Shown: piece after piece, positions 7,414-60,678 of the stretch | Numbering within the stretch: position 1 is the stretch's first letter | Layout: every line of letters begins with the position of its first letter | Origin: Pezizomycotina sp. ARF18 | Taxonomy: Eukaryota > Ascomycota | Length of the DNA stretch: 64,000 nucleotides | Direction: 5' to 3' | Assembly: GCA_002224055.1 (NCBI GenBank) | Contig: AZLU01000185.1 | Coordinates: forward strand, 1-64,000 | Notes under the pieces: model-generated | Told to the model about the DNA's origin: nothing | Database searches by the model: none | Seen by the model: the letters and a program-made list of their open reading frames with translations, nothing else | Position numbers and translations under genes: made by a program

Positions 7414-10400
7414 TTACTGCGCTTTCAACAACAGAGGGAGGAGATAGATAGGACCCTTCCGGCTCCCGATAGCATCCAAAGTGGCGGTGACAAACTCAGA
7501 AACTCCGATCTGCTTGGCCCGAACGGTCCATTCGGCTACGGGAAGTTCTTCGAAAGGACATCCTTCTTCAGCTTCAAAGTGATCCTTTAGTTCTTTCGGA
7601 GCGACACTGTGTCCGCTAGTATGATGGACGAAAGAGAGGAGATTTTCCTCACAGCTGCTGGCCGGGACTTTTCGTTTAAGTTCGCGGAGGATCCCATCGG
7701 CGATGACGTCTGCGGGAGCGTAGTCGATGAAACCCTGCGCGTTTTCCAGGATAGGAACCGCTTTGAGTACCCGGCTGTACTTCAGAATCGAGTTTATCAC
7801 GTCCGTGGCGGGAGCGCTTTCGCTGACCGCAGCGCAGGCTCGGTGGATGCAGACGGGTAACCGAAGCTTCTCCGATACCTTCTCGAGGTACCGCTCGCAT
7901 GCCCATTTTGCCGCTGCCAAGCCCTCACTCCCATCCGTCGGAGGGGCCATTGGCCGACGGAAGCTTCTTCCAGACTAGTTTTGCCAGAAAATGGGACAAC
8001 GCGCCCGCTCGAGATGAGGTGGATGGGTATTCGCCGGGGCGCTGCGATCTTAACGAGCTGTTTGGTAAACGTAACGGACCTCTCACGAATGGATTGATAT
8101 GAATTTAACAACGACCCACTCACGCCGGCGTGGACAATGACATGAACCTCTCTGGATAACTTGCTGATATCTGCCTCGCTGAGGCCGAGGTTCGGCATCA
8201 TTACGCTGCCGACGTGCGTCTCCACCTTTGCGTAATCCGGCGTGTTGTTTACGGGACTGAACTCATCTACCTTAGGCACAGCGATGCAGTGCACTTTCGC
8301 GACGGTGTCATCTTCCACCAGCATACGGAGCAGCGTTCGGCCGAAGAACTCTGTAGACCCTGTTAGCAGAACCACCTTACCCTTGGACGGCGGCTCTGAG
8401 GCCTCGAAATATTGGATTCGGAGAAGCTCGTCGGAGACCGCTGTTTCGGCTTCCCAGTCAATGGCATCATGCAGTGATTCCGTAGAGGCCTAATCGCAAA
8501 TTAGCGTAAGCAAAATCGGATTCTAATAGGAAAACTTACCTTTTCTGCCAATCTCTCCTCTTCAGTTTTGTTCTTCTTGACGTCTATGCGTGCCGCCATG
8601 CTTCGCAGCGCGTCATATTGAAATAGTTCTGCGAGACCGACGTCGACTTGAAAAGCTTCCCAAATGCTGGCCTGAAGTTTCATGACGAGGATCGAATTAC
8701 CCCCGAGATGGAAAAAGCCTGTCTCGTGGTTAATTTGAACAGTTTCAGTCACCGATGACTGCAGAATCTCCCTCCACAGCGATTTCAATTTTGATTCAGT
8801 GGTGGTAAGGTCCGCCGCTTCCTGCGAAATATCCATGGCGGGGAGTTGAAGAGTATCGATGGCGTCTCTGTCCTTCTTCCCGTTGGCATTTGTTGGAATG
8901 CGCTCAACCGGTACCATCATCGCCGGCATCATGTACGATGGCAATGGAAGGTTGAAGAGAAGCTCCTTCAGGAACCTCGCGGGATTGCTTGGCGTACTAC
9001 CCGATGAAAAGACGACAAAAGCGACGAGGAATTGCGGATCCCCGCGTACCGAGAGAGTCGCATCGGCTAGACAGCCACGGGCGGCGTCGAGGATAGTGTT
9101 CGCGATATCGTCAAGCTCGATGCGGAATCCTCTGAGTTTGATTTGTGAGTCGCCGTCCATACGGCCAAGGAAAACAATTGACCCATCCTCAAGCATGCGA
9201 CCTTTATCGCCGCTTCTATAGAGCTTAGTCCAACCAAGAGCGGCATCTTCCGACGAAGCAAAAGGGTTTTTGACGAACTTGCTTTCGGTCAGCTTAAGGT
9301 TATTAATGTATCCAAGACTGTTGTTCGCTCCTGAAACACAAATCTCGCCTGGAAAACCGGTCGGCACCGGCCTCAATTGCTCGTCCAGGATAAAGACAGA
9401 GATGTTTGGTAATGGGCGGCCGATGGTAGGGTATTCGTGTCCTGTCCCACTCTGGATATTGGTGTAGCATACATCCGTCTTCGTGAAGATACCGAGTTCT
9501 GTCGGGCCGAAACAATCCATAAGTGACAGGGTTGTAAGGCCCAGCTGTTGAAACTGTCGCTGGAGGTGCAAAGTCATGTTCTCACCGGCTGACCAAGCTA
9601 GTTTCCAATTGAGCACCGTTTGAGATGCAGATCACCATATTGGAGAAGAATGGAATACTCTGTGGCGTAGCTAGGGTGAATGTGATTTTTCGTCAAGCAT
9701 CAGTTCTGCTAGCTTCTTGGCTTGTACGCGGATAGTTCGCGGCGCGACTATCAATTTTCCGCCGCCAAGCAGAGCACGGAAAATTTGGTACAGAGAAAGG
9801 TCAAATCCGAGAGAGCTCTGCTGTAAGACAACTTCCTTACCACCGCCGGTGTACTGGTCTTCCAGCGTTCCGCTCATCGCATTGAGTAAATTGGTTTGTG
9901 TGAGCAGGATTCCCTTTGGACTTCCGGTAGATCCGCTGGTGTACAATGCGAAAGCTGGGAGGCCCATTTCTGAACGGTCTTCCACCGTAGACACGGATCC
10001 GTACGTAGCCGCTAAGCATGACACATTGATGATTGGCGACCCTTCCACACCCAGATTGCGGGCCAGATGTAGAGTATCCGGTTGACAGATTACAGCCGAC
10101 GGCTGGCAATTTTGGGAAATAACAGCCAGACGCGCAGGCGCATTCTGGACATCGAGCGGTGTGTATATAGCGCCCAGCCTCGATATCGCCAAGAGAGACG
10201 CTATGCTATCACTCGACGGTTCCATGAGAACGGCGACGTACGACCCGACCGTCACTCCGGCGGCTGATAATGCCCCGGCAATGGTATAACTCCTCTGTGT
10301 GAGCTGGGTGTACGTCAGGATGTTGCCGTATCCATCCTTGACAGCAATATCATCACCTTGCCTCTCTGCAACGGCATCGACGTGACAGCTTAGGGTCGAT

Positions 10401-13400
10401 TGAAAACTTGTCGGCATCCTTTGACCAGCTACCAGAGAGATGCCTAACCTAGCGTCTAAATTGCTATACAGATTATACGTGTCGAGCGTTTGCAGAGGTG
10501 ATTCTGATATTTCGTGCAATAAATGAATATAACTCTTCATCAGTATGTTGCAGGCATCAGCGGAGTAGAGGTCGTCTCGCATGGATATCGATAGGTAGCA
10601 TGTCTCCTTTGTCGGCTCCGTAACGCTCATATAAAGGTCGTAAGGGAGGATAGCGTCATTTACCCCTCGTGGCCGAATTTCGCTCTCTCCAAGGGCAGCT
10701 TGCGGAAGTGTTCCCATTCGGTAGTTGACGAGCACTTGGAATAGAGGCGTATGACTTTGAGATCTTGGCACGTTCAGCTCATCCAATAACGCTTCAAATG
10801 GCAATCTCGAGTTAGCGAGGGCGGCAAGGGCCTTCTGGGCTGTAGTCTTGGCGATATTGGATAAGAGCTCTTCGGAGCGATGTCGCTGGAAGCGCAGAGG
10901 GAGGATATTCAAAAAGACACCGATAGTGTTGAGAAATTTCCGCTCCGTCCTATTGGCATCCGCGATGCCGATGCAAACCTCATCCGTAGAGAGGAGCTTG
11001 AATAGAAGCGCCTGAAGTACTGTCAGGTGAAAATGAAACGGCGTGATACCCAGTTCTTGACTAGCCTTCTTCATCCTCCAAGCCTGCTGGGGAGATAATT
11101 CGCTGTGGCAGTATGGGTACCGTACACGTTAGTTACGGAACGCGAGCGGACTCGGGAGAAGCCGAATAACGGTAATGTTGGCGGAAGATCTGGGAACTCT
11201 TTCTTCCAGAATGTTATTTCATCTGCCAATTGTCCGCTCTTAACTCGGTTCCTCTGGCTCGTAGCATAGTCAAAATAATGCGCAACGTCCGGATTCAACG
11301 GTCGCATTTCGTATGCTTGGGTAAGTTCGCGAAGGAACAGGAAAAAGCTCGACCCATCCATAAGGATGTGATGATAGCCGAATACCATCGTACTCCAAGA
11401 TGATGAACGACGCAAGAGAGTGGCGAGGCAAGTGTTCCCTTTCTCCAGGTCAAAGACGTAGCTTCTTATACGATCAATCTCCTCCACTACATCGGCATCG
11501 CTGGTAATTTCCTTTTCTTCCAACGCGACCGACGGTTCCTCAAGGACGCTCTGCATTCCTTCACCACTTTCGGGATGCATGAAAAAACGTGTTCGGAATA
11601 TTTCATGCCGAGAGATGACGGTTCGAAAGGCTTTCTTCAGCCGTGCAATCTGGGTCGGACCTTTGATATCGTAGGCGAGAACGACATTGTAGGTCGATGG
11701 GTTATCAGAGTACGCTTTCAGGAACCATAGCCTCGATTGGGCGTAGGACATTTGCGCCTCTCTCCCGAATCCCGACTCTTCGGAGGTTTTGGCATTCGCC
11801 GATACTGTGTCTAAGCTTGAAGGTTTTCCCATTGCTTCCTCCAAAGCTGATACAGCGCCGGACTTAGACTCAACTTCGAGTATAGGATCCTGCTGCATAG
11901 TGCCATTGTCATGATTCTTGTTATGGGTATATCAGTATCACGTTATCTAATTTGGGAGAAGGATATTCGTACCTTGTTCGATCCAACATTCTCCGTCTGT
12001 TCCGCCGCGAGTCCATTGGAGACGTTCACATCCAGGCCGCTATCGCTAGACGCGTTGTCGGACCGGTCCTCGATATCTTTGGCCTCCTTACCATCGCTAT
12101 CCATAGCAGGAGTTCCAGGACCTATAGCTAACGCGCTCGTTGGCAATTCCTTTTCTCCGACGGCAGTCTCGTCTCCTGAGCCTTTGGGCAATTAGTTTCG
12201 GACCTAGAAAGACCTCGACGCAGTTATGAATATCTTACCTCCTTTTTCCCGCGAAGCGAAAAGCTTTTCCACGACCTCCTCACAGAGTTCTGCCGCGCTG
12301 CTACCACTAAGAACCTTCATGACAGGTATATCGATCTTCGTTTCCTTGATAAACCACGATCTGATCTCGATGGCCACCAATGAATCGATTCCCAGTTGCA
12401 TTAAGGGCGCCCTTGGGAAGATATCACTCTCACTAATCTGTAGCATCTTGGCGAGCTTCATAATGAAGGCCTTTTGAAGGATTTCGTTAGCTTCTTCTGC
12501 GCTTGCCGCTCCGGCGAGCTGCTGGCTTATCTGGGCAACAACGGCCACTCCCTCCTGTACATCATCGTCGTCTTTGGGTCTGCAATGCGAAAATCTGGGG
12601 TTGTAAAACCACGGCGGTCGCTCGTCGTCAAGGTATCGGCTAACTGCCAGGCCCACCAGTAGCTCCGGGCATTGTCCCGAGTCCGGTCGGCCTGCCACGA
12701 TGGCTTCAGCGAAAATATGATGGAATTCAGCCTCGGAGATCGAAAGGCAGTGGTTCTTTTCCGAAGATACTCTTCCAGGTTCTTTCCAGACCGAGAGACG
12801 TAGCCTACTTCCGCGAGCATGCCAAGGTCAATCACAGATGCAGTAAGACCATTTTTCCTTCGTTGGTGGGTAACACCTGCCATGAACATGTTGGCGGCTG
12901 CGTAATTGGACTGGCCGGGGTAGCCAGCGATCGCGGAGACGGATGACAACATGACAAAGAAGTCTAGGGACACTCCATCGAACAGATCGTTGAGATTTTC
13001 GGTGCCTTCGACTTTCGGCCCCAAAACATCGGCCATTTCCTCAAAGCTCATATCGACAAAGAGGCTATCCCGGAGAACCATGGCCGCGTTGACGACACCG
13101 CCAATTGCGGGCATTTTCTTGCAGATGTCGGAATGAACCGAACGAAGTGCTTGCTTTTCGTTACATCCATCGAATAGACCTTGACGTTCGCTCCTGTGCT
13201 GCGCGCTTCTTCCAGCCATTTAGGGTTCACAACCCCGGTTCGACTTGTGAGTACCAGATTCCGAGCTCCATTGCGGATCATCCAGCTTCCGAGTGAAACG
13301 CCGAGTCGCCAGTCATGCCAACCAATAGGTAAGTTTTGTCTTCGTACAAGAGATCCCTGGGATTAATTTGCTTCACAGTCGTCAGGTAAAAGTCTCTGCC

Positions 13401-16400
13401 AGTCCAGTCCAGCATGCAGAAGCTCGAGTTTTCTGCGACGCCAGGTACGAACTCATCCGGTAGAATGTTCCTGAAGATAGTCACATCTTGCATAGCCACA
13501 GTAGTCGCGTTTGCCCTCGAGACAGCCGCGGTAAGACTCCTTTCAGGCCTGAGGGACCACTATGAGAGAGCACGTCACTGGCTTCGTCACCGAAATATGT
13601 CGCGATCTTTCGGATAGCACAAAGCGGGGCAAAAAACTTTCAATGTCAGAGCACACGCTGTCGGAACGTCCTTCGGAGAAATCGACGAATTTGAATATCG
13701 CGTTGGGAAGAAGCTTCTGGATCTCGCGTCGTGGTGCCAGGGCTGGATATGTATCCAAAAATCATCTCCGGGGACAGGCAGTTGCGAAGTGGTGCAAATC
13801 ACACGGACGCCGGCCGTCGCAGCTCTTCTAAAGATGATTCTTGCAAGCGTCTCCTCGGGCCTGTGAAGCAAAGGACGCCACCAACGGGCACATCTAAAAG
13901 GAGTTCCTCGGCAAGCATCTCCGCTGCAACCAATTGAAGGTATCGCTCTTCGTCATCGGGCAATACTTCGCATGGGTACATCCACTCCACGCTAGTCTTA
14001 ACGACGGATGAATTGGATCGCGAAGCGGCCAGTACGCGTTGGCCAGTTCCAAACGCCGTCCCAACGCACAAGTACAAAGAACTCATACCGGCAAGAAACA
14101 AGGGTCGTAGCAGAGAAAAGCGCACCAATATCTGGGTATGACCGAGAGGCATTGCTGGGGAAGCGATGACCGGCGTTCCTTGTTGCAACATATAGTAACC
14201 ATTCGTATTAATAACGTCAACAGTATATTCAGCTGTGGATACTTCCTTTTGCACTATTCTTCCTGAAGAATTCAGTCTTGCATTTAGATGGTGGTCAGGA
14301 ATAATTCGAGGAATCAAAGGGTGCCGTCGTGTTCCACGGCAATTTCAGGCTCGGTAGTCCAGAGTACCTCCGGCCCTAGAGTATCCTTTATCACCAGTCG
14401 CAGGAGAGCTTCCGTCAGAATTCGAGCGTCGAAATTTGCAACGGCGTTTGCACTACCGCTAATGTCCATCATTTGCAGGTTGAGATGCGGCATTTCATTC
14501 AGCAGTGTACGAGCCAGGCCGACAGTCATGTTAGAATGAGGGTTGTCAGTCCTGCCAGCCTTGGTAACCCACAAAACCTGCTTTGCTTTACTCAGCAGCT
14601 GCTGCATACTCCAAAGAGTCTCAGTCGACAACGATTCGAAATAGGTCTATCGAGCTCTGTCAGGCACAGCACTGTCGCCGAAGGTAAAACCAAAGCGGCG
14701 TTGACCGATTCAAAGTCATCGAAGATGACAGTACGCTGCTCCAATGACGGAAGAGGCCGATTACTTGATGTATTAGCCTCGAAACATGGAGAGTCTTCCC
14801 ACCGATAACGAGTAGCTGTTCAATTTGGGGAGCTGGATCGGATCCAGTAAAGGGTCCGTAGTAACTTGACCCTGTCGTCCAGTGCCTGACTGGCGATGGA
14901 GGAGTATACGTGTTTCGAAGGTTCATCCGTATCGTGCAGAAGGGTGTCAATCCCGGAGAACCCAGATTCTCGCAGGATTTATCCCACTGCATCGTCGTGA
15001 CGGTTGGAACGAGGCGACGCCCATCGTCACCCCGAGCCACCAACCAGGTAGCCCGGCTGTGATGAATGAGGTACGTAGGGAATCTGCTGTAGGCTCCAAG
15101 AGCAGTAGATAGCCTCCAGGCCTCAAGAGACGCCTTACATTTGCGTTGTTTCTTTCAGCCTTCGGTAGCGTGTAGGACGCTAGAGGCTATGACAACGTCG
15201 AACGAGTGAGGGGCGAGCCCTTGTTCCTCTGGGTCTCTTTCAGCGTTGAAAACCTTGAAAGACATTTTGTTGCCGTGGGCCTCGAAGCGTTGCGCTGCCT
15301 TTTCGAAAAATCCGGTCGAGATATCAGTGTACACGTAAGAAGAGAAGGCTCCGTCGATGCTGTCAAGGACGTGCTTCGTCGCTGCCCCGTCCCAGCTCCT
15401 ATCTCGCAGACCTTGATATCGGATATCGATGTGCTATTTGCTTTGCCATGCGCGAGATATGGCTGTAATTCCGGACAACCCTAGCGCGTCATCGTAGAGG
15501 CGTTGGAACATATCCCCTTCCGTCAAAACCTCCAGCATGGCTTTTTCTCCCTTAGAACAGCAGGGAAATTCTCCGCAACTGTCATTGCCACGCGTAAATC
15601 AGTCGTCTCCGGGAATCTGCTCAGTTCTGCGAGAACTTGTTCGCGTGTATCGTTGGCCCAGGCCTTTTGATAATAGGGTGTCTGCCGAGGTCAATATCTG
15701 AAAACAGGGACTCCATATATTCCCAAAGGCGCTGGTGGAACCACTCAAAGGTAACAACTTCATCTTTCGAGAACATTGCATATAATTCCCTTAGGTAGAC
15801 GTGCGAGAGACGTTCTAGAAGGAGCGGAAGCTCGGAGCTTTCTAGGGCATTTCCCTTAGCTTTGTAGTTGCTTCCAACTCCCGTCGAGATGTCGACATCC
15901 CAAAGTTCGTAATAAAACAGACGTCTGTCATTAGATGGCTGGTTTGTTTCAGAGATTGCTTTCAAACTTAGACCTTCTATCTGGATCCCAATGTGACTTA
16001 CGCCCTCCGTGCTGATGTCCACATCGGTGCTGATTGTCGACGGTGAGTTCGGCGATGGTGGTGAGATGCGCGAAGTATATGCGTCGATAGTGATATTCAC
16101 CTCACCACTGGACCCAATGTTAGTAAGAGGCAGTACGCTGACCCGGATCCGCTCGAACCCCGTAGGAAGGTACGGATGCCAGACATTAGCAGTTGAGCCG
16201 ATACTAGCGAAAGCTGATTGAAATGCGACATCAAGCAGAGCAGGATGTACTATGAGATCTGTCTTAATAGCCTCTCGAGGCCAAGAGGCCATGGAGATCG
16301 ACTTGGACGTTCCTCGTTCTACCTTCTGCAATGCTCGAAACAATCCGTTATACTCTAACCCAAGTCCGAAAGGCTACGGTAGAACCGGTCGATATCAAGT

Positions 16401-19400
16401 GGTAGCATGTACCCAGTCTCGCTTTGCCTAGATGCCAGATTGGTCACAGACGGCTCACCAAAACTCAAACGGAGTCGACCGCTCGCGTTAACCTCCAGGT
16501 GCCGTCCGTTTGATTGGGGCATGAAGAGCACACGAACTCCGCCATGTCATCCTTTCCTTTTTATTCTTGAGAAATTTCAGGGCAAAGATGACTTCGACCC
16601 CCGCGTCGTTATCGGGAATAATGAGGGCTCGAGGCATGACAATATCATGGAGCTCTACGAAAGCAACTGGACGTTCTCCCCATAGGGACTTCGATGCTTC
16701 AACGGCCATGCTTATGTACCCCGCAGCGGGAAACACGACCTGTTGTTGAAAAACATGGCCCCGAAGCCATGGCATCTCCTCCAGGCGTACGATATTGCGC
16801 CAACGCATCTCGTGCGAAGAATCATCCGGTCGCCGATGCCCGAGCAATTCATGAATACGGTCATTGCGAAAGCGGACGTTCCTAGAGATGCGAGATTCCT
16901 TCCAGTGGATACGCTTGTGATCCCATGAATAGGATGGCAAATTGTCCAGAATCTTAGTATCAAGTGGCATCTCTGCGTCCCCGAAGGTTCGCCTATAACC
17001 GTCGAAGTCAATTGACGCTTTCCCACCTAGGTGTGCCCAGATGTAACCCAAAGCGTTAGAAAATGTTTCGACGCCGTTGTGACCGCGACGCAATAGAGCA
17101 CAGTAGGGGGCAGGGGATCCGTTGCCGCCTTGATGGTTTGGGCTACGGGTCCTTCCAATGTTGGGTGGGGACCGACTTCTATCATCATGTCGAACGGGCC
17201 GCTCTCGCGCAACACCCGTTCAATAGCATGTGAAAAGAGCACTGATGTGTCATGTTATCGGCCCAGTAAATGTCCTTAAGCCGCTTGGTATCCGTGATCA
17301 CACTGTTTGTAACGCTTGATATCCAGACACAAGAGTTAGAATTTGAAAGGGGCTGGACGTTGCATGCTTTCATGGACCGAATGTATGGCTCTACTGCTAA
17401 GTCCATGTGATGAGAGTGATACGCGTTATCAACCTTTAATATTCTAGTAAAGTGTTTGGTTCCAAGCATCTGCTGGGCTTCCTGAATCGCATCGGTGTCC
17501 CCAGAGATCGTCACGCTTGCCGGAGCGTTACTTGCGGCGACACAAAGGCGGCCAGCAAACTGGCTTGATTGACAAAGCTCGAGGGCATCGGTGAAAGAAA
17601 TTCCGACAGCCATCATTGCTCCGGCGGGGCCACTATTTGACATCGAATGGCACCCGCGATAATAAGCGATTCGGATAGCATCAGAAGAGCAGATATATCC
17701 GGCCGCATATGCGGCGGCAATTTCTCCGGAAGAGTGGCCGACCACAGCGCTGAAGGAGATACCTGCGTGTCTTAGAACTTCTATCAAGGCAATTGGACCG
17801 CCGCGCAGAGAGGCTGTCCAATAGCGGCCTCGTAAACGCGTGAAACATCTTTTTCCGCCATAAGCTCGGCTTTCAAACACCATGTTGGTGGATCATGGAG
17901 TTTAGACAGCGATTTTTGGAGATCCTCGATGGTTTCCTCGAATACCTTGGAGGAGAGTAAGAGCTCTCGGCCCATCTGAGGCCATTGTGCACCCTGCCCC
18001 GTGAAGATACCAAGAATCTTCAAGCTGTTTTCGTGATTGAAACGATTAGACGCGACCCCGAATTTCGAACCAGAGTCTTTGTGCTTTTCAATTGTTCGTC
18101 TATAGAAGCAACCAAGTTTTCTCTTTTTGCCCCCGAGAACGCGATTCTAACAGGAAGAACTGATCGACGTAACTGTAAAACCCGCGATAAATTGTCGAGA
18201 TCGATGGAAGTGCCGGTCTTGAGGAGGTTATAGACAGCCTTAACGTTTTGAACAAGAGAAGCTTCCGAGCTGGCTGAAAAGACAAATGGTCCTCCGGATT
18301 TAGATTCAACCCAAGATGTTTGGGCGAGCTCTGATTGTGGCTGGTCCCCGAAGTTCTGGCTTTCAGGAATGTAGCTCTCTACGATAGCATGGGCACTGGT
18401 GACAGTGTTAGCAGAACGTTACTCAAAATTTCCAATTGCCTTCAAGTTGGACTTACTTTGTTCCACCGAAACCAAAGCTATTCACGCTAGCTCGGCGGGC
18501 TGGCCTGTTGATACGGCTGGCCACGGCTGCGCTGTGGTAGGGATTTTCAAATGGGTATAGAAAGGCTCGATCTTGGGGTTAAGGTTGTTAAAGAGTAGAT
18601 TTGGAGGTATCATGCCTTTCTGTACCGCGAGGGAGGCTTTCAAGACCCTGCCAGCCCAGCACAACCTTCCAGGTGACCGACGACAGTTTTGATAGAGCCT
18701 ATGAGTAATTGCTCATCTGGTCTATAATTTACTCCGGCCTCATCACCCGTGGTTCTGGGAAGAAGGCATTACGAACTGCCTCGGCTTCGATAGGATCACC
18801 AAACGGGAGTTCCGGTACCGTGGGCCTCGAAATATTGGCATCGGTCCGCTTCTTGGCGGCAGTCTAAACCAGCCAGCTGATACGTCCGCCGGATTAGGGC
18901 CGCTTGGGCGGACGCGCTTGGCATGGTGATACCTGCTGTGCGGCCGTCGGAATTTACCATCGTTTCTCGGATAACGCTCCTGATGTTATCATTGTCTTTG
19001 ACGGCTTGATTTTACTCCTTTCAAGACTACGGCGGCGAACCCGTCGCCTCGTGCGTACCCATCGCCTCGATGTCCACATCCTCGACCGCGAGCCTGGAGA
19101 AAAGCATGTGCAACATTGACTCGGCAATGTACGGCTCCGGGTTTAAAAATAAGATTGACCCCCGCGACAACCGCGATTTGCGATTCGCCGCTGCGAAGGC
19201 TGCGCACAGCTTGGTGAAGCGCGACGAGGCTCGAAGAACACGCCGTATCAATTGTGATAGACGGGCCCTTGATTTTAAGATGATATTCATTAGCATCAGG
19301 TTTTAGGAATTTGGTTTCGAGAGCCAAAAACTTTCTTACCTTCCAATCGAAAAAAGTAAGAGATGCGATTAGACAAGATGCTATTGGCGGTTCCTGTCGC

Positions 19401-19843
19401 CGCATATTTGGGAATCGTGTCGCCGTCCCGGAGCTGCGTCGCAGAAGTCCGAGGACATGACGCCCAAAAAAACAGAGGTATCGGAGCCGCGGAGTTGCTC
19501 GATGGAGGCCGGCGGACTCGATGGCTTCGTAGACCACTTCGAGTATGATGCGCTGCTGGGTCCATCGCCTCAGCTTCCGCCGGACTTATGTTGAAGAACG
19601 AGGCATCGAAGACGCGGTGATCCTGTGAAATGACGTAGGATTTCTGAACATTCGTGGTGCCATGGTGTTCTCCTTCAGGGTGATAGTAACTCTTGAGAGT
19701 CATCCGGTCAGGTGGGATTCTCCTAAGATATCGCGCGGTTCGCATAACAAGTCCCATAGTTCTGACGGGGAATTGGCTCCCGGAAAGCGAAGCGCGTGTC
19801 CTACCAGGGCGATCAATTCCTTATCCTGAGCTGTCATCTTCAT
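7414..19843 (-). CDS. Hybrid PKS-NRPS megasynthase, Dieckmann-type release predicted
   Basis: One gene of about 4,000 residues. From ATG at 19843: KS (DTACSSS near 19240; EAHGTGTP near 18810), AT (FTGQGAQW near 18000; GHSSGE near 17730), DH (LRGH near 16770; [10 protein letters not shown] near 16220), methyltransferase (EIGAGTG near 15395), KR (LLVGMTGD near 13330; SNYAAANMF near 12900), ACP (LGIDSL near 12390), condensation (HHILMDG near 11365), adenylation ([11 protein letters not shown] near 9930), thiolation (LGGNSI near 8700) and a reductase-like domain (TGSTEFFG near 8355). No ER signature was found in the MT-KR linker. Five introns fit in phase: 19268-19339, 18396-18456, 12182-12238, 11893-11972, 8490-8539. 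Such enzymes fuse a methylated polyketide to an amino acid. The terminal domain has Leu at the YxxxK Tyr (GLAAAKW near 7910), as in Dieckmann-cyclising members, so a tetramic acid-type product is inferred. The domain order looks whole, but the frame is interrupted a dozen or more times by short indels. Confidence 0.9.
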
Positions 19844-37243: not shown

Positions 37244-37639
37244 TCTGGAGCAGGAAAACGCACATGTGTTTACCGGAAGCGGATGGCTCGAGCTCATGAG
37301 AGGTGGCCAAACACTGGCCCTCGCCCTAGATCACCGTTTTCGGGTAGAGCAACAGCGTCACCATCGCTTTCCCATGGCCTAGTTCGTCGAACAGTCTGGA
37401 TTCGTTTGGCTCGGCGAAAACAATGCGACCGATATATGAAGCCCCTATCTGGCTGCTTTTCGGTCAGTCAATTTCAATTTCACATTCATTATTTTGTTGA
37501 ACAGTATCAGAACCCGGAAGCCGCCGAATACATGCAAAACAGAGGTAGTTTTTGCAAAGCACATTCCTTCGAAGCAGGTATCATATGCCCGTCGCAACAA
37601 ATTGAGACGATGCACATATTACCTTTGTCTTCTTACTCC

Positions 37640-39018
37640 TCCGGCTGAGGTCACCTCCTCGAAATTCTCCATCCCCGTTCACCACAGACACAACCACCAC
37701 ACCGTAACGGACCCGCCGCGCTGCGAAACGCTTACCACAAGCATGGCATCCCCGTACCTCAGCACATCCACGAAGCAGCCGCGCACCCAATACCTTCGTC
37801 GCAAGCAGTACCGCCATACCCACGGCCACCATGGTCACCAGCGGCGGCAAAGCGGATCGGTGCTTTCTACACCCTCAGAATTCGACATAGAGTACCTCTC
37901 CCCTGTAACCGTCGGACGTCAGACGCTGCAGTTGAACATGGACACTGGATCTGCAGACCTATGGGTGTTCTCATCCGAATTAGACCACGCGATCGTAGCT
38001 AGCAGACCACGGCCGGTGTACTCGCCTAATACGACGACGACAGCGAAGAATACGAGCAGTTCGTGGTTTATATCCTACTCCGACGGTTCCTTCGCGTCGG
38101 GGCGGGTAGTGCTGGATATAGTATCAGTCAGTAACACGACCGTGTTAACCAATCCGTCGGAGTGGCATCGAGGATATCAAACTCGTTCGTACACGACGAG
38201 GAGTGCGACGGTATCCTCGGCCCGGTGTTTTCAAGCATAAACACTATCCAACCCGTCAAGCAAAAAACATCCTTCGAAAACGCACTCAGTAAACTATCAG
38301 CCGGTCTCTTCGCCGTCGATTTACGCCACAACGCATCCGGAAGCATAGACTTCGGTTTCATAAATTCAACAAAGTATAAAGGAGAAATAACATACGTCCC
38401 TTGAGAAACGGCAGCGGGTTCTGGCAGTTCAGACGAGTAACAGGTACTACATCGACGGCAAAGTGCAGCGAAGCGCTATAATGTCGCGGGGCGCGCTCGC
38501 GGATACGGGCACGACGCTGCTGCTGATGCAACCGTTTAATGTCTCGACTTATTATAAGAGCGTCAAGGGCGCCGGATACAGTAGGTCGCAGGAGGTCACG
38601 TTTTTCCGTGTAAGAGCGTATTGCCGACCTTGAGTGTCGCTATTGATTTCAGCTTCGTGCCGATCATGGGGAGTCTATTGAATTTCGGACAGATAAGTCG
38701 TAAGTATACCCATCCGTATTCTGTCATTTTCGAGCTAGGACAGGAGAAGGGAAAAGGGCTAATAGAATGCAAAATGAAACAGCGACGCTATGTTATGGTG
38801 GACTCCAGGACATCAGCGCGACTTACCCGTCCGTATACGGCGATATATTCTTCAAGGCCGCTTTCGCGATATTCGACTATCAGAACCATCGATTCGGGTA
38901 CGACAAGAAAACTCGTAGCATTTTCTCTTCTGAGTCGCACTTTTCTTATTCGCTCTTTCGTATCACCTTCCCCGCAAAGTACTGTTTATCCTTTCTGTCC
39001 GATTCTGGGGAATCCTAA
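37640..39018 (+). CDS. Pepsin-like (A1) aspartic endoprotease
   Basis: Both catalytic Asp motifs are present: DTGSADLWVFSSEL near 37940 and LADTGTTLLL near 38510. The propeptide shows RNGPAALRNAYHKHGIPVPQ, typical of aspergillopepsin/penicillopepsin proenzymes, followed by EFDIEYLSPVTVG at the mature start. SYSDGSFASG is the flap region with the expected Tyr. CDGILGPVFSSINT and CYGGLQDIS followed by VYGDIFFKAAFAIFD match the C-lobe. An intron from GTAAGT (about 38699) to the AG near 38763 fits the family. Frame changes occur around 37710, 37850, 38145, 38400, 38450 and 38770, several explained by one base missing from a GG, CC or AAA run. Expected to be secreted and acidic. The signal peptide exon is not clearly resolved. 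Confidence 0.8.
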
Positions 39019-56830: not shown

Positions 56831-58042
56831 ATGACTTTCTATCTTATTACAAAGATGCAGGCGGTCGTATGTATTCCTATTACATGATTTATACCCTCGA
56901 ACGCATTAATTTATACTAATTTTCTCTTAGTACGTCGAGTGGACGTTCGTCGCCTGCACGGCTGTCCTCGTGTTTCTACGCTTATACTATAACTGGACCC
57001 GGAAGGGAAGACTGTTTTGGCAAGATGGTTTTATCATCCTCGCCTGGTTCTTCTTCGCCTTTCAGACCGCCGCAGACTGGACCATGACGCACTTCTATGC
57101 CACTCAGCCAGCCCTTACGGAGGATGACCACACCACTCTGGGTAATATCGTAAGCGGACGGACTGAATATCTGACGCTTTTGATCGCAAAGGTACATCTT
57201 ATTTTCTTGAATTGAGATCATTCACCTTCGCGATATGGTACTAAAGCATCGTGTTATAGTTGAAATACGCGGAGAATGTCACCTACTACGGCTGCTCTAC
57301 ATGGTCAAGTTCGCGTGGCTCTGCTTCTTCCACACGCTCATCCCGAAGGCATTGCCACATCTCCGAATAGCATACTGGGTCGTCACAGCCATATCCGTTA
57401 CCGGATACGTCTTCACAACACTCATAAACACGCTGTACTGCATCCTGTTAGCACCCGATGGGCCATTGGGAACGGTACATACTGCTCAAATGCGCAATGG
57501 GTGTGGATCACTATCGCGACTCTACATAGCGCTACCGATATCATTAGTATGTCTTTACCTTCTTCTCTCTGCAGACTAGCAATAATATCTAATTTGTTAT
57601 ATACGATAATACTAAACTTGAGCACTTTGCTAATAACAAATGCTATAGTCTACGTGCTACCGATCCTTCTCGTCCGCCATCTGCAGAACCTAACCAAGCG
57701 GAACCGCTTGGGTGTGGCGCTCCTGTTCGCTCTCGGCTTTATCTGCGTTGGCTGGGCCATCACGCTGCAGGTTCAGAACCTGACCAACGTGCCCGGCTCC
57801 GTGGTTTGTATCTCAGGTGCTTTGAACAGTCGTGGGCTATTTTAGTCGTATGTCTGCCCAGTTTCAAGGCCCTCCTCCTCAGTGGCTTCCGAGAAGCCAA
57901 GTTCTGGAAGAGAAGTAAGGATGTCTGTGAGCCTCACGGTAGCAGCGCAGATGGCAGTATGGAGAATGTCAGCCAGAAGGAGAGCGGTGGCAATGCCGTG
58001 GTCAAGCAGAGGAGTATTGAAAGCGGTGACATGAATGCCTAA
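56831..58042 (+). CDS. Seven-helix fungal rhodopsin-like integral membrane protein
   Basis: Four exons: 56831-56866 (MTFYLITKMQAV), 56931-57191, 57260-57546 and 57649-58042, with introns in phases 0, 0 and 1. Helices: YVEWTFVACTAVLVFLRLYY, FIILAWFFFAFQTAADW, LLYMVKFAWLCFFHTL, YWVVTAISVTGYVFTTLI, WITIATLHSATDII spliced to IYVLPILLV, LGVALLFALGFICVGWAITL and SWAILVVCLPSFKALL. A hydrophilic tail (FWKRSKDVCEPHG) ends at 58042. This matches the fungal-specific rhodopsin-like domain of the PTH11/integral membrane family: short outside N-terminus, seven helices, cytosolic tail. Three frame changes (near 57290, 57472 and 57800), two of them a G missing from a G-run, are probably errors. No canonical CFEM domain precedes the helices. 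Possible surface sensor. Confidence 0.75.
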
Positions 58043-58955: not shown

Positions 58956-60678
58956 TTACCACCTCCTCGGTGAACCGCAGCCCCACCCGTAGTTGTCGCC
59001 CCAGCCTGAGCAGCAGTAGTACGAGTAGGATCCTGAACAGGACCTGGCGAAGCCGTCCCCTGTTGAAAGATGCATCATTTTAGCGAATACCAAGTCGGAG
59101 GAGTTGATTGAGGGTGAGGGCGGTAGTAGACTTACATGTCCTACATCCGTAGATATTATTACCACGTTTTACGCCGTTACAGCAGGCATAATAGTAATTG
59201 CTTTGGCAGTAGAAGTCGCTCCGGCCGCCGCCCCCTGCTTCGGCCTCCGCCGGACCATGACCAAGAGTTATCGCCGCCGTGTCCATCACCGTGGTCGAAG
59301 CCTCCTAAATAAAAAAGAGAAAATTAGCGCACACCGATTGTAAAATGCGGCAAACGCTATATAGGGAATACATAGCTAGAGATACACCGGGCAAGGAAAG
59401 GAAAGAGGAAGGTCCTTACCATTTCCTACGCCATTACCCCATGAGCCACTCCAGCTACCTATTGAATAGAGAGGAAGACAGTCAGGAAGTTGAAGTTACC
59501 TCTCGGAAGGATACCCTTCAATAAATTGCCTAGGCCTGATAAGATGGGGATTGTGCCGGTACCTCCGCCGCGGTCGCTGCCGCCGCCACCTCCACCTCCG
59601 CCGCCTCCTCCTGTTCAATTAGGTATATTAGTCGCTGTCCGTTCAAAGTTACAAAGGAGACGACAATCAAAGGTTGATGCTTACCGCTGCTGCTGCACCG
59701 CCTCCGCCGCCTCCGCCGCCCCTCCTGTAGCTGAGGTGTTAGTTGCGCAGTCAGATGACTCAACGAGGGTTTTACCTAGTTAAAGAGATCGATTTCATAC
59801 CACTGCTACTTCCGCCGCCGCCGCCGCCGCCCCACCTCCTCCGCCAGAGCGGAAACCGCCCCCTCCTCCGCCTCCACCGCCGCCGCCTAATAAATAAAGT
59901 CAGTTTCACTAGCATCTCGCCATACAGTTGCTCAGAATCGTCTTCCATACCTCCACTTGAAAACCAACCTGCAAAGTAGGATGATTTTAGTATCGTGATT
60001 CAGTTTCAAGTAACCACAGCTTAGACGCTTTGATCTCGACGGAAAGAGAGGTTGAAGATGAGAGTATCTTACCTCCGCTGTTGCTACCTCCGCTCCGCCG
60101 CTAGAATGGGAACCGCCGCCGCCGCCTGTAGTAGATTAGCTATTGTCTCGATTAATATATTTGTACTAGCGCGGAAAGGATAAGCTCACCTCCGCCGCCT
60201 CCACCGCCGCTGGAATGGGAGCCGCCGCCTCCGCCTGCTTCGTCAGTTAATTACCGCTTTACTATGCATGCGTTCGTGAATAGAAGCGGTTGCTCACCTC
60301 CACCGCCACCCCCTAAAATCGTGGAAAAACGTTAGCGGACTATCTACATCCGGGGTCAAGAGGAATCCGACGCTTACCTCCACCACCTCCGCCTCCACCT
60401 CCGCCTCCGCCGCCTCCGCCGCCACCGCCTGCTCATTAGGTTAGCAAATCATACAGGAATTTCTATCGACTGAGGAACATATCATACCACCACCGCCGCC
60501 TCCGCTCCACCTCCGCCGCCACCTCCGCCGGCCCAAATCCGCTTCCATGGCCTTTATCGAAGCCGCCGCCACCATGGCCTTTCTCCTCTCGCCTTGCGAT
60601 GTCCTTAATCTCTGGTGCTGCGACCGCTACTCCAGCGGCGAGCCAGACACACATGAGCCATACAAGAACAACCCGCAT
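58956..60678 (-). CDS. Secreted glycine-rich protein encoded by phase-1 micro-exons
   Basis: Twelve exons, all with GT-AG introns: 60678-60488, 60428-60378 (51 nt), 60312-60298 (15 nt), 60234-60190 (45), 60125-60073 (53), 59968-59951 (18), 59886-59801 (86), 59724-59685 (40), 59610-59500 (111), 59458-59420 (39), 59304-59136 (169), 59059-58956. Exon 1 codes MRVVLVWLMCVWLAAGVAVA (signal peptide) and EEKGHGGGGFDKGHGSG. Exons 2-8 are poly-Gly with small inserts: SHSS (twice), WFSS, FRS and SSS. Exon 9 adds GTIPILSGLGNLLKGILPR. Exons 10-11 carry SWSGSWGNG and SDFYCQSNYYYACCNG. Exon 12 carries CSGSYSYYCCSGWGDN and ends GSPRRW. Every junction splits a codon after its first base, usually Gly. Exons off a multiple of three fit one or two bases lost or gained in G/C runs. 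About 307 residues. Likely an extracellular structural or matrix protein. Confidence 0.75.

Follow-up and report, generated by a model that had tools for sequence, protein, structure and literature searches.

A candidate micro-exon gene for a glycine-rich protein in a filamentous ascomycete

In most fungal genes the introns are short and the exons longer (PMC2397502; papers are cited by PMC number). At one locus in the first 64,000 nucleotides of contig AZLU01000185.1 from Pezizomycotina sp. ARF18, the stretch analysed as a whole and called the window, a preliminary description had proposed a series of very small exons rich in glycine codons and likened it to the micro-exon genes (MEGs) of schistosomes. 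The locus raises the question whether it is a true spliced gene and, if so, whether its exons serve as variable cassettes and what made their intron phase uniform. Such an architecture is unusual for a fungus. A literature search, covering titles and the beginnings of abstracts mostly of papers outside subscription journals, found no description of a fungal class of phase-1 glycine-rich micro-exon genes, which is a weak negative. The word microexon does occur in some fungal papers, four times in PMC1184071, and single fungal micro-exons are thus in print.

Exon-intron structure and splice signals

The gene, termed gene A, lies on the minus strand from a start codon at 60678 to a stop codon at 58956, and was modelled with 12 exons and 11 GT-AG introns of 41–115 nt (Table 1). 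Twelve exons with GT-AG borders, six of them of 15–51 nt, had been described before without mention of the strand, and all could be placed within these limits. The six small exons (51, 15, 45, 18, 40 and 39 nt) are among the 10 internal ones, of which six are also multiples of three in the assembled sequence. The introns measure, in order, 59, 65, 63, 64, 104, 64, 76, 74, 41, 115 and 76 nt, so that two of the 11 exceed 100 nt. The inserts reported for the glycine blocks were likewise recovered: exons 4 and 5 both carry SHSS, exon 6 has WFSS, exon 7 has FRS, and exons 7 and 8 each end in SSS. Judged from the letters, the locus appears to be a micro-exon gene coding for a glycine-rich protein, with cassettes that look interchangeable without upsetting the frame.

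Table 1. Exons and first intron of gene A (positions in the window) and genes of like design (positions on their contigs)
Feature	Length	Position	Strand	Remarks
Exon 1	191 nt	60488..60678	minus	carries the start codon and a likely signal peptide (MRVVLVWLMCVWLAAGVAVAAP...), then dibasic RR and the first Gly block; frame change within (as assembled)
Intron 1	59 nt	60429..60487	minus	GTATGA...CAG, CTRAY present
Exon 2	51 nt	60378..60428	minus	pure Gly, phase 1
Exon 3	15 nt	60298..60312	minus	GGGG; introns on either side among the Gly-intron-Gly pattern matches
Exon 4	45 nt	60190..60234	minus	GGGGSHSSGGGGGG
Exon 5	53 nt	60073..60125	minus	GGGGSHSSGG...; frame change within (as assembled)
Exon 6	18 nt	59951..59968	minus	WFSSG
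Exon 7	86 nt	59801..59886	minus	Gly block, FRS and SSS; frame change within (as assembled)
Exon 8	40 nt	59685..59724	minus	Gly block, SSS at end; frame change within (as assembled)
Exon 9	111 nt	59500..59610	minus	Gly block, then SDRGGGTGTIPILSGLGNLLKGILPRG
Exon 10	39 nt	59420..59458	minus	SWSGSWGNGVGN
Exon 11	169 nt	59136..59304	minus	GFDHGDGHGGDNSWSWSGGG, then first Cys block C-x7-CC-x11-C; frame change within (as assembled)
Exon 12	104 nt	58956..59059	minus	second Cys block (C-x7-CC-x10-C), then the stop
Gene B		contig C9, about 133550-131900	minus	Gly-rich, two Cys blocks
Gene C		contig C176, about 64330-61270	minus	M35 deuterolysin (PF02102, 3.2e-17)
Gene D		contig C89, from 72847	plus	collagen-like, likely secreted

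All 11 introns start with GT and end with YAG, and the next exon always opens with G. The donor reads GTRNG in 10 of them, the exception being GTAACT after exon 9. A CTRAY branch site is found near the 3' end of nine introns, the remaining two showing CTAAA instead, at 17 and 19 nt. In dinucleotide shuffles, the number of introns with CTRAY averaged 3.6 with a maximum of 8, and the observed nine were reached in none of 2000. Intron-like units at the locus number eight on the minus strand, seven of which are introns of the model, and zero on the plus strand, against a mean of 2.0 and a maximum of 6 in 1000 shuffles. Because both the branch-site and the intron-unit counts exceed those of the shuffles, the arrangement of exons and introns goes far beyond chance. 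Introns of Fusarium carry CTRAY in 91% of cases, measure 42–529 nt and end in YAG/R, the slash marking the junction (PMC5677156). The introns of gene A are of this spliceosomal type of filamentous ascomycetes (GT-AG, CTRAY, YAG/R, from about 42 nt).

Intron phase and the broken reading frame

When the junctions were read locally, over 18–20 nt per side, all 11 were in phase 1, the split codon being that of Gly at 10 of them and of Trp at the last. The glycine frame is lost on one side of junctions 7 and 8 after no more than a few codons, which in the exon downstream of junction 7 means about two, because exons 7 and 8 change frame inside. In the assembled sequence such changes occur within five of the 12 exons (1, 5, 7, 8 and 11), and the plain join of all exons, 922 nt, contains five stops and is not one frame. 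The uniform phase 1 of the preliminary description therefore stands at every local junction, but the assembled exons give no single frame and the breaks had been overlooked. The same description had held that junctions of mixed phase with stops in the joined frame would speak against the model. Taken literally, the assembled letters do contain such stops, which are attributed below to the assembly, and mixed phases were not seen at the local junctions. A search for other splice paths without stops, with introns of 38–130 nt and a branch site required, returned 222. As the one richest in introns has mixed phases and arginine-rich blocks, an open path alone is no evidence.

The quality of the assembly (46.4 Mb in 408 contigs) was gauged on the HSP70 genes of contigs C49, C70, C208, C3 and C303, which lie in adjoining pieces in shifted frames. 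The comparison covered 30 neighbouring pairs and used 36 of the 38 rows; the two set aside were a locus in a single piece and an overlapping piece. Nineteen pairs are within 4 nt of the distance required by the model, and of these 18 miss 1–4 bases and one has 2 extra. The other 11 are 14 to 242 nt off, as expected of introns or overlapping pieces. In the window itself, a polyketide synthase-peptide synthetase (KS, AT, KR, ACP, condensation, AMP-binding, NAD_binding_4; 7414-19757, minus strand) is chopped into many short frames, as expected since the assembly misses many bases. Its Condensation, AMP-binding and NAD_binding_4 domains, single in each case, are each divided over two frames.

By reading, the breaks of gene A, too, can be taken as missing bases, about 7–8 of them in 922 nt; the C49 HSP70 gene has eight over 1783 nt. 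The rate is thus roughly double in gene A, where the breaks lie in G-rich repeats. Since the HSP70 and synthetase genes break likewise, mostly by missing bases, we infer that the frame breaks and stops of gene A are base-deletion errors of the assembly and not decay. It is unlikely that gene A is a decaying copy, or pseudogene, of a spliced gene, its breaks being true mutations. Such a copy would fit breaks in five exons at about twice the rate of the C49 gene, but it leaves aside that the HSP70 genes and the synthetase are broken too, the former by missing bases at 18 of the 19 countable places. Moreover, every one of the 11 introns has recognisable splice sites, with nine CTRAY and two CTAAA branch sites, and the multiple-of-three lengths of the small exons and the cysteine spacing look maintained. 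Some decay of gene A may have occurred, because of the twofold break rate. Conclusions on single genes from this assembly require accurate reads.

Predicted product and genes of like design

The N-terminus encoded by exon 1 is hydrophobic and was judged by eye to be a likely signal peptide. Next would come a short propeptide, processed at a dibasic site, then a long and flexible glycine-rich middle encoded by the small phase-1, and hence symmetric, exons, and finally a disulfide-bonded tail. The tail, encoded by exons 11 and 12, has eight cysteines in the arrangement C-x7-CC-x11-C-x9-C-x7-CC-x10-C. The product is presumed to be secreted and to function outside the cell, in the wall, the matrix or a surface coat. 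With the tail of gene A and the joined tail pieces of gene B (see below), no Pfam family was retrieved at E up to 10 with the HMMER filters on. This includes the hydrophobin families PF01185 and PF06766. The best match of the tail in the PDB was an antibody at E = 0.74, which is not convincing. When the tail, exon 1 and pieces of exons 9–11 were searched against the own genome, the gene itself was returned, together with one chance-level match to exon 1 (E = 0.54).

Gene A was considered as a hydrophobin and rejected. Class II hydrophobins, including glycine-rich multi-domain forms, share the cysteine order C-CC-C-C-CC-C and two of the five spacings (11 and 10), and a quadr-hydrophobin also has a glycine-rich region ahead of its cysteine part (PMC7827705). 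However, the spacing 7-11-9-7-10 of gene A is unlike that of class II, 9-11-16-8-10, with 7, 9 and 7 in place of 9, 16 and 8 (PMC7827705). Trp occurs in gene A, and the quadr-hydrophobin gene is intronless (PMC7827705), in contrast to the 11 introns here.

Genes of similar architecture were sought in the 46.4 Mb with sequence patterns. The pattern GGNGGNGGNGGTRAG-N40-69-YAGGNGGNGG gave four matches, three in gene A and one in gene B, and none in the reversed control; as it was modelled on gene A, its matches there are by design and its absence elsewhere is the result. The micro-exon pattern YAGGNGGNGGN{1,31}GGNGGTRAG gave 11 matches against 12 in the reversed control, which is no excess. Three loci besides gene A were read among the 11, and two of the matches led to genes B and C. 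The GTATG form gave five matches against one, none of the five alike by eye. The GP form gave seven against five, of which only two, both gene D, were read, so that the gene counts for this design are lower bounds. Looser micro-exon patterns showed no clear genome-wide excess over their controls, and a low-complexity glycine query of the own genome gave no match and was uninformative. As far as these patterns reach, the micro-exon design seems confined to few genes, at least four.

Gene B has a hydrophobic N-terminus, KR sites and glycine exons with SRFG or SRSG inserts. Its repeated KR sites (KREASAEPAPEPEAALEKR) recall precursors processed by Kex2. The two cysteine blocks, YC-x7-CC and SCSG..YCC, are separated by an intron, as in gene A. 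A two-sequence alignment with gene A over hand-chosen pieces gave 40%, whereas in searches of the own genome up to E = 10 neither of the two tails retrieved its counterpart. From the cysteine arrangement, the intron between the blocks and the alignment, gene B is a possible paralogue of gene A. A glycine tract need not be split by introns: long uninterrupted glycine-rich stretches make up exon 3 of gene B, of 217 nt, and the final part of gene C.

The Gly-Pro tail of gene C is encoded by phase-1 exons of 68, 72, 44 and 72 nt and a long last exon with GGPEGG and GGDG. Other M35 genes were found at five places, some with Gly/Pro-rich tails; no series of small exons was noticed downstream of the four that were read, by translation, C109 being left out. 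In gene D, small exons (27, 34 and 18 nt, GPGGPGG) precede longer ones, among them phase-1 exons duplicated in tandem (SPPxxxGGSPPGCQGPDCPPP). In the assembled sequence, the lengths of exons 3, 6 and 7 of this gene are not divisible by three. Exons 6 and 7 are identical at 72 of 87 aligned columns, and exons 7 and 8 at 58 of 69. Its introns form 21 pairs, each compared with 60 shuffles: 1/2 and 1/3 reach a score of 23 where the shuffles reach at most 15, and 3/4 is weakly alike (18, shuffles at most 16). Introns 5–7, beside the similar exons 6–8, are not alike beyond the shuffles. These comparisons provide good evidence that exons of gene D were duplicated and that, at exons 2–4, whole exon-intron units were duplicated as well.

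Taken together, genes A–D have 29 junctions, 26 of which are plausibly phase 1 on both sides by eye, the other three (B1, C1 and C4) being near a frame break. The split codon is Gly at 26 of the 29, and 25 of the 29 introns have CTRAY. Multiples of three make up 8 of the 11 internal exons of at most 51 nt (P = 0.009 against an expectation of 1/3) and 14 of all 25 internal exons (P = 0.016), figures that, like the preceding ones, are descriptive, as the genes were chosen for their likeness and are not a random sample.

Origin of the uniform phase and mode of splicing

The preliminary description read the uniform phase as a sign of exon duplication or shuffling. Splice junctions prefer G/G, and inside GGN codons, where N is not G, the sole G/G is that after the first base, which gives phase 1. 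In the glycine part, phase 1 is thereby forced, and its uniformity is weak evidence for shuffling. Phase-1 proto-splice sites have been linked to glycine codons in PMC1626468, where the hypothesis is credited to Tordai and Patthy. The uniform phase of gene A is thus considered to follow largely from its composition. Junctions 9–11 are in phase 1 though they lie outside pure glycine tracts.

Where exons are symmetric, whole exons can be duplicated or deleted, and repeats thereby added or removed, with the frame intact. Gain or loss of repeats by way of exons is evident in gene D, and for gene A we infer it. The growth by exon duplication that had been claimed for gene A is therefore borne out in part: exons 6 and 7 and some introns of gene D are alike and GGGGSHSSGG is common to exons 4 and 5 of gene A, but no clear likeness was seen among the introns of gene A (top score 12 over 55 pairs, shuffled maximum 11). 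A stronger proposal is that shuffling or duplication of exons by recombination, over composition, was the main cause of the uniform phase of gene A. The same likenesses in gene D (72 of 87 columns; intron pairs 1/2, 1/3 and weakly 3/4 beyond all 60 shuffles) and in exons 4 and 5, together with the phase of junctions 9–11, argue for it. In view of the dissimilar introns of gene A, of the introns 5–7 of gene D, which flank similar exons without being alike beyond shuffles, and of the phase imposed by G/G inside GGN, it is regarded as rather doubtful. It is compatible with the reading of gene A that is preferred here.

According to this preferred reading, gene A is probably a protein-coding fungal gene, spliced mostly constitutively by intron definition, with a secreted, glycine-rich, cysteine-tailed product and with breaks that are assembly errors. 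Its introns are short and likely to be the unit recognised by the spliceosome, splicing itself being presumed from the signals. In a survey that included 14 fungi, retained introns were far above skipped exons in all 14, and in fungi and protists together retained introns were 37 times more numerous than cassette exons (PMC2397502). Since short introns are likely recognised as a unit and fungal retained introns outnumber skipped exons, mostly one full-length mRNA would be expected, and exon skipping in gene A is considered less likely.

It is accordingly quite improbable that gene A is a fungal counterpart of MEGs in which variable skipping of cassettes yields secreted length variants that serve diversity. 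The small symmetric exons, the likely secretion and the existence of several genes of this design suit such a role, and exon lengths indicate that exons 2, 3, 4, 6, 9 or 10 could each be skipped with the frame kept, as read. Against it are the short introns with strong signals, which favour intron definition, the 37-fold excess of retained introns in fungi and protists (PMC2397502), and the length of schistosome MEG introns (PMC10526429). A further point against it is that each intron of gene A, if retained singly in the assembled sequence, either introduces a stop (nine introns) or shifts the frame (6 and 8).

The MEG design that had been ascribed to gene A agrees in the many small exons, mostly multiples of three, and would agree in the signal peptide and the secretion that are likely for gene A (PMC10526429). 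It differs in the introns, which are 0.1–5 kb in MEGs and longer away from the gene ends (PMC10526429), against 41–115 nt here. Few motifs are conserved in the proteins of MEGs, which are rich in Pro, Phe and Leu (PMC10526429), whereas gene A has glycine tracts, and splice variants are known of MEGs but none of gene A. Lacking the long introns (0.1–5 kb), gene A was not assigned to the schistosome type. Alike in junction type are the bicycle genes of aphids, which encode secreted proteins and have many micro-exons, the internal ones opening at codon position 2 almost without exception (PMC9168663). As read, the intron thus follows the first codon base in both. The likeness is one of gene structure; bicycle genes belong to insects and encode different proteins, which are putative gall effectors (PMC9168663).

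Gene A would work in the manner of other genes whose repeats sit on symmetric exons, namely collagens, MEGs and bicycle genes, but was assigned to none of these groups. Repeats of Gly in animal collagen-type genes are carried by small symmetric exons. This is the layout found here, with GPGGPGG exons of 27 and 18 nt in gene D. The resemblance concerns the layout of exons and not a triple helix; gene A encodes poly-Gly and not Gly-X-Y. It is tentatively proposed, at somewhat less than even odds, that genes A–D represent a class of extracellular proteins, with at least four genes (two glycine-rich with Cys tails, one M35 protease tail and one collagen-like), in which phase-1 cassette exons multiply by duplication and vary in number between strains or species, as a fungal parallel to growth of the collagen or MEG type. 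If so, exon duplication can drive the growth of repeat proteins outside animals, and these genes would be a clean test case for uniform intron phase arising from exon shuffling as against splice-site preference in glycine codons. Glycine-rich surface proteins of fungi may be under-counted, because gene predictors may miss or garble micro-exon genes.

Scans of the 64-kb window for tRNA and Rfam families returned nothing. A frame with a fungal rhodopsin-type membrane domain (PF20684, 2.6e-6, just over the cut-off) adjoins gene A at 57276-57845 on the plus strand, and by eye its gene spans several frames. This receptor-type domain, the M35 genes and the intron signals make a filamentous ascomycete the likely source of the DNA. 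The start of a eukaryotic aspartyl protease (PF00026, 1.5e-17) is present at 37494-38240, also on the plus strand.
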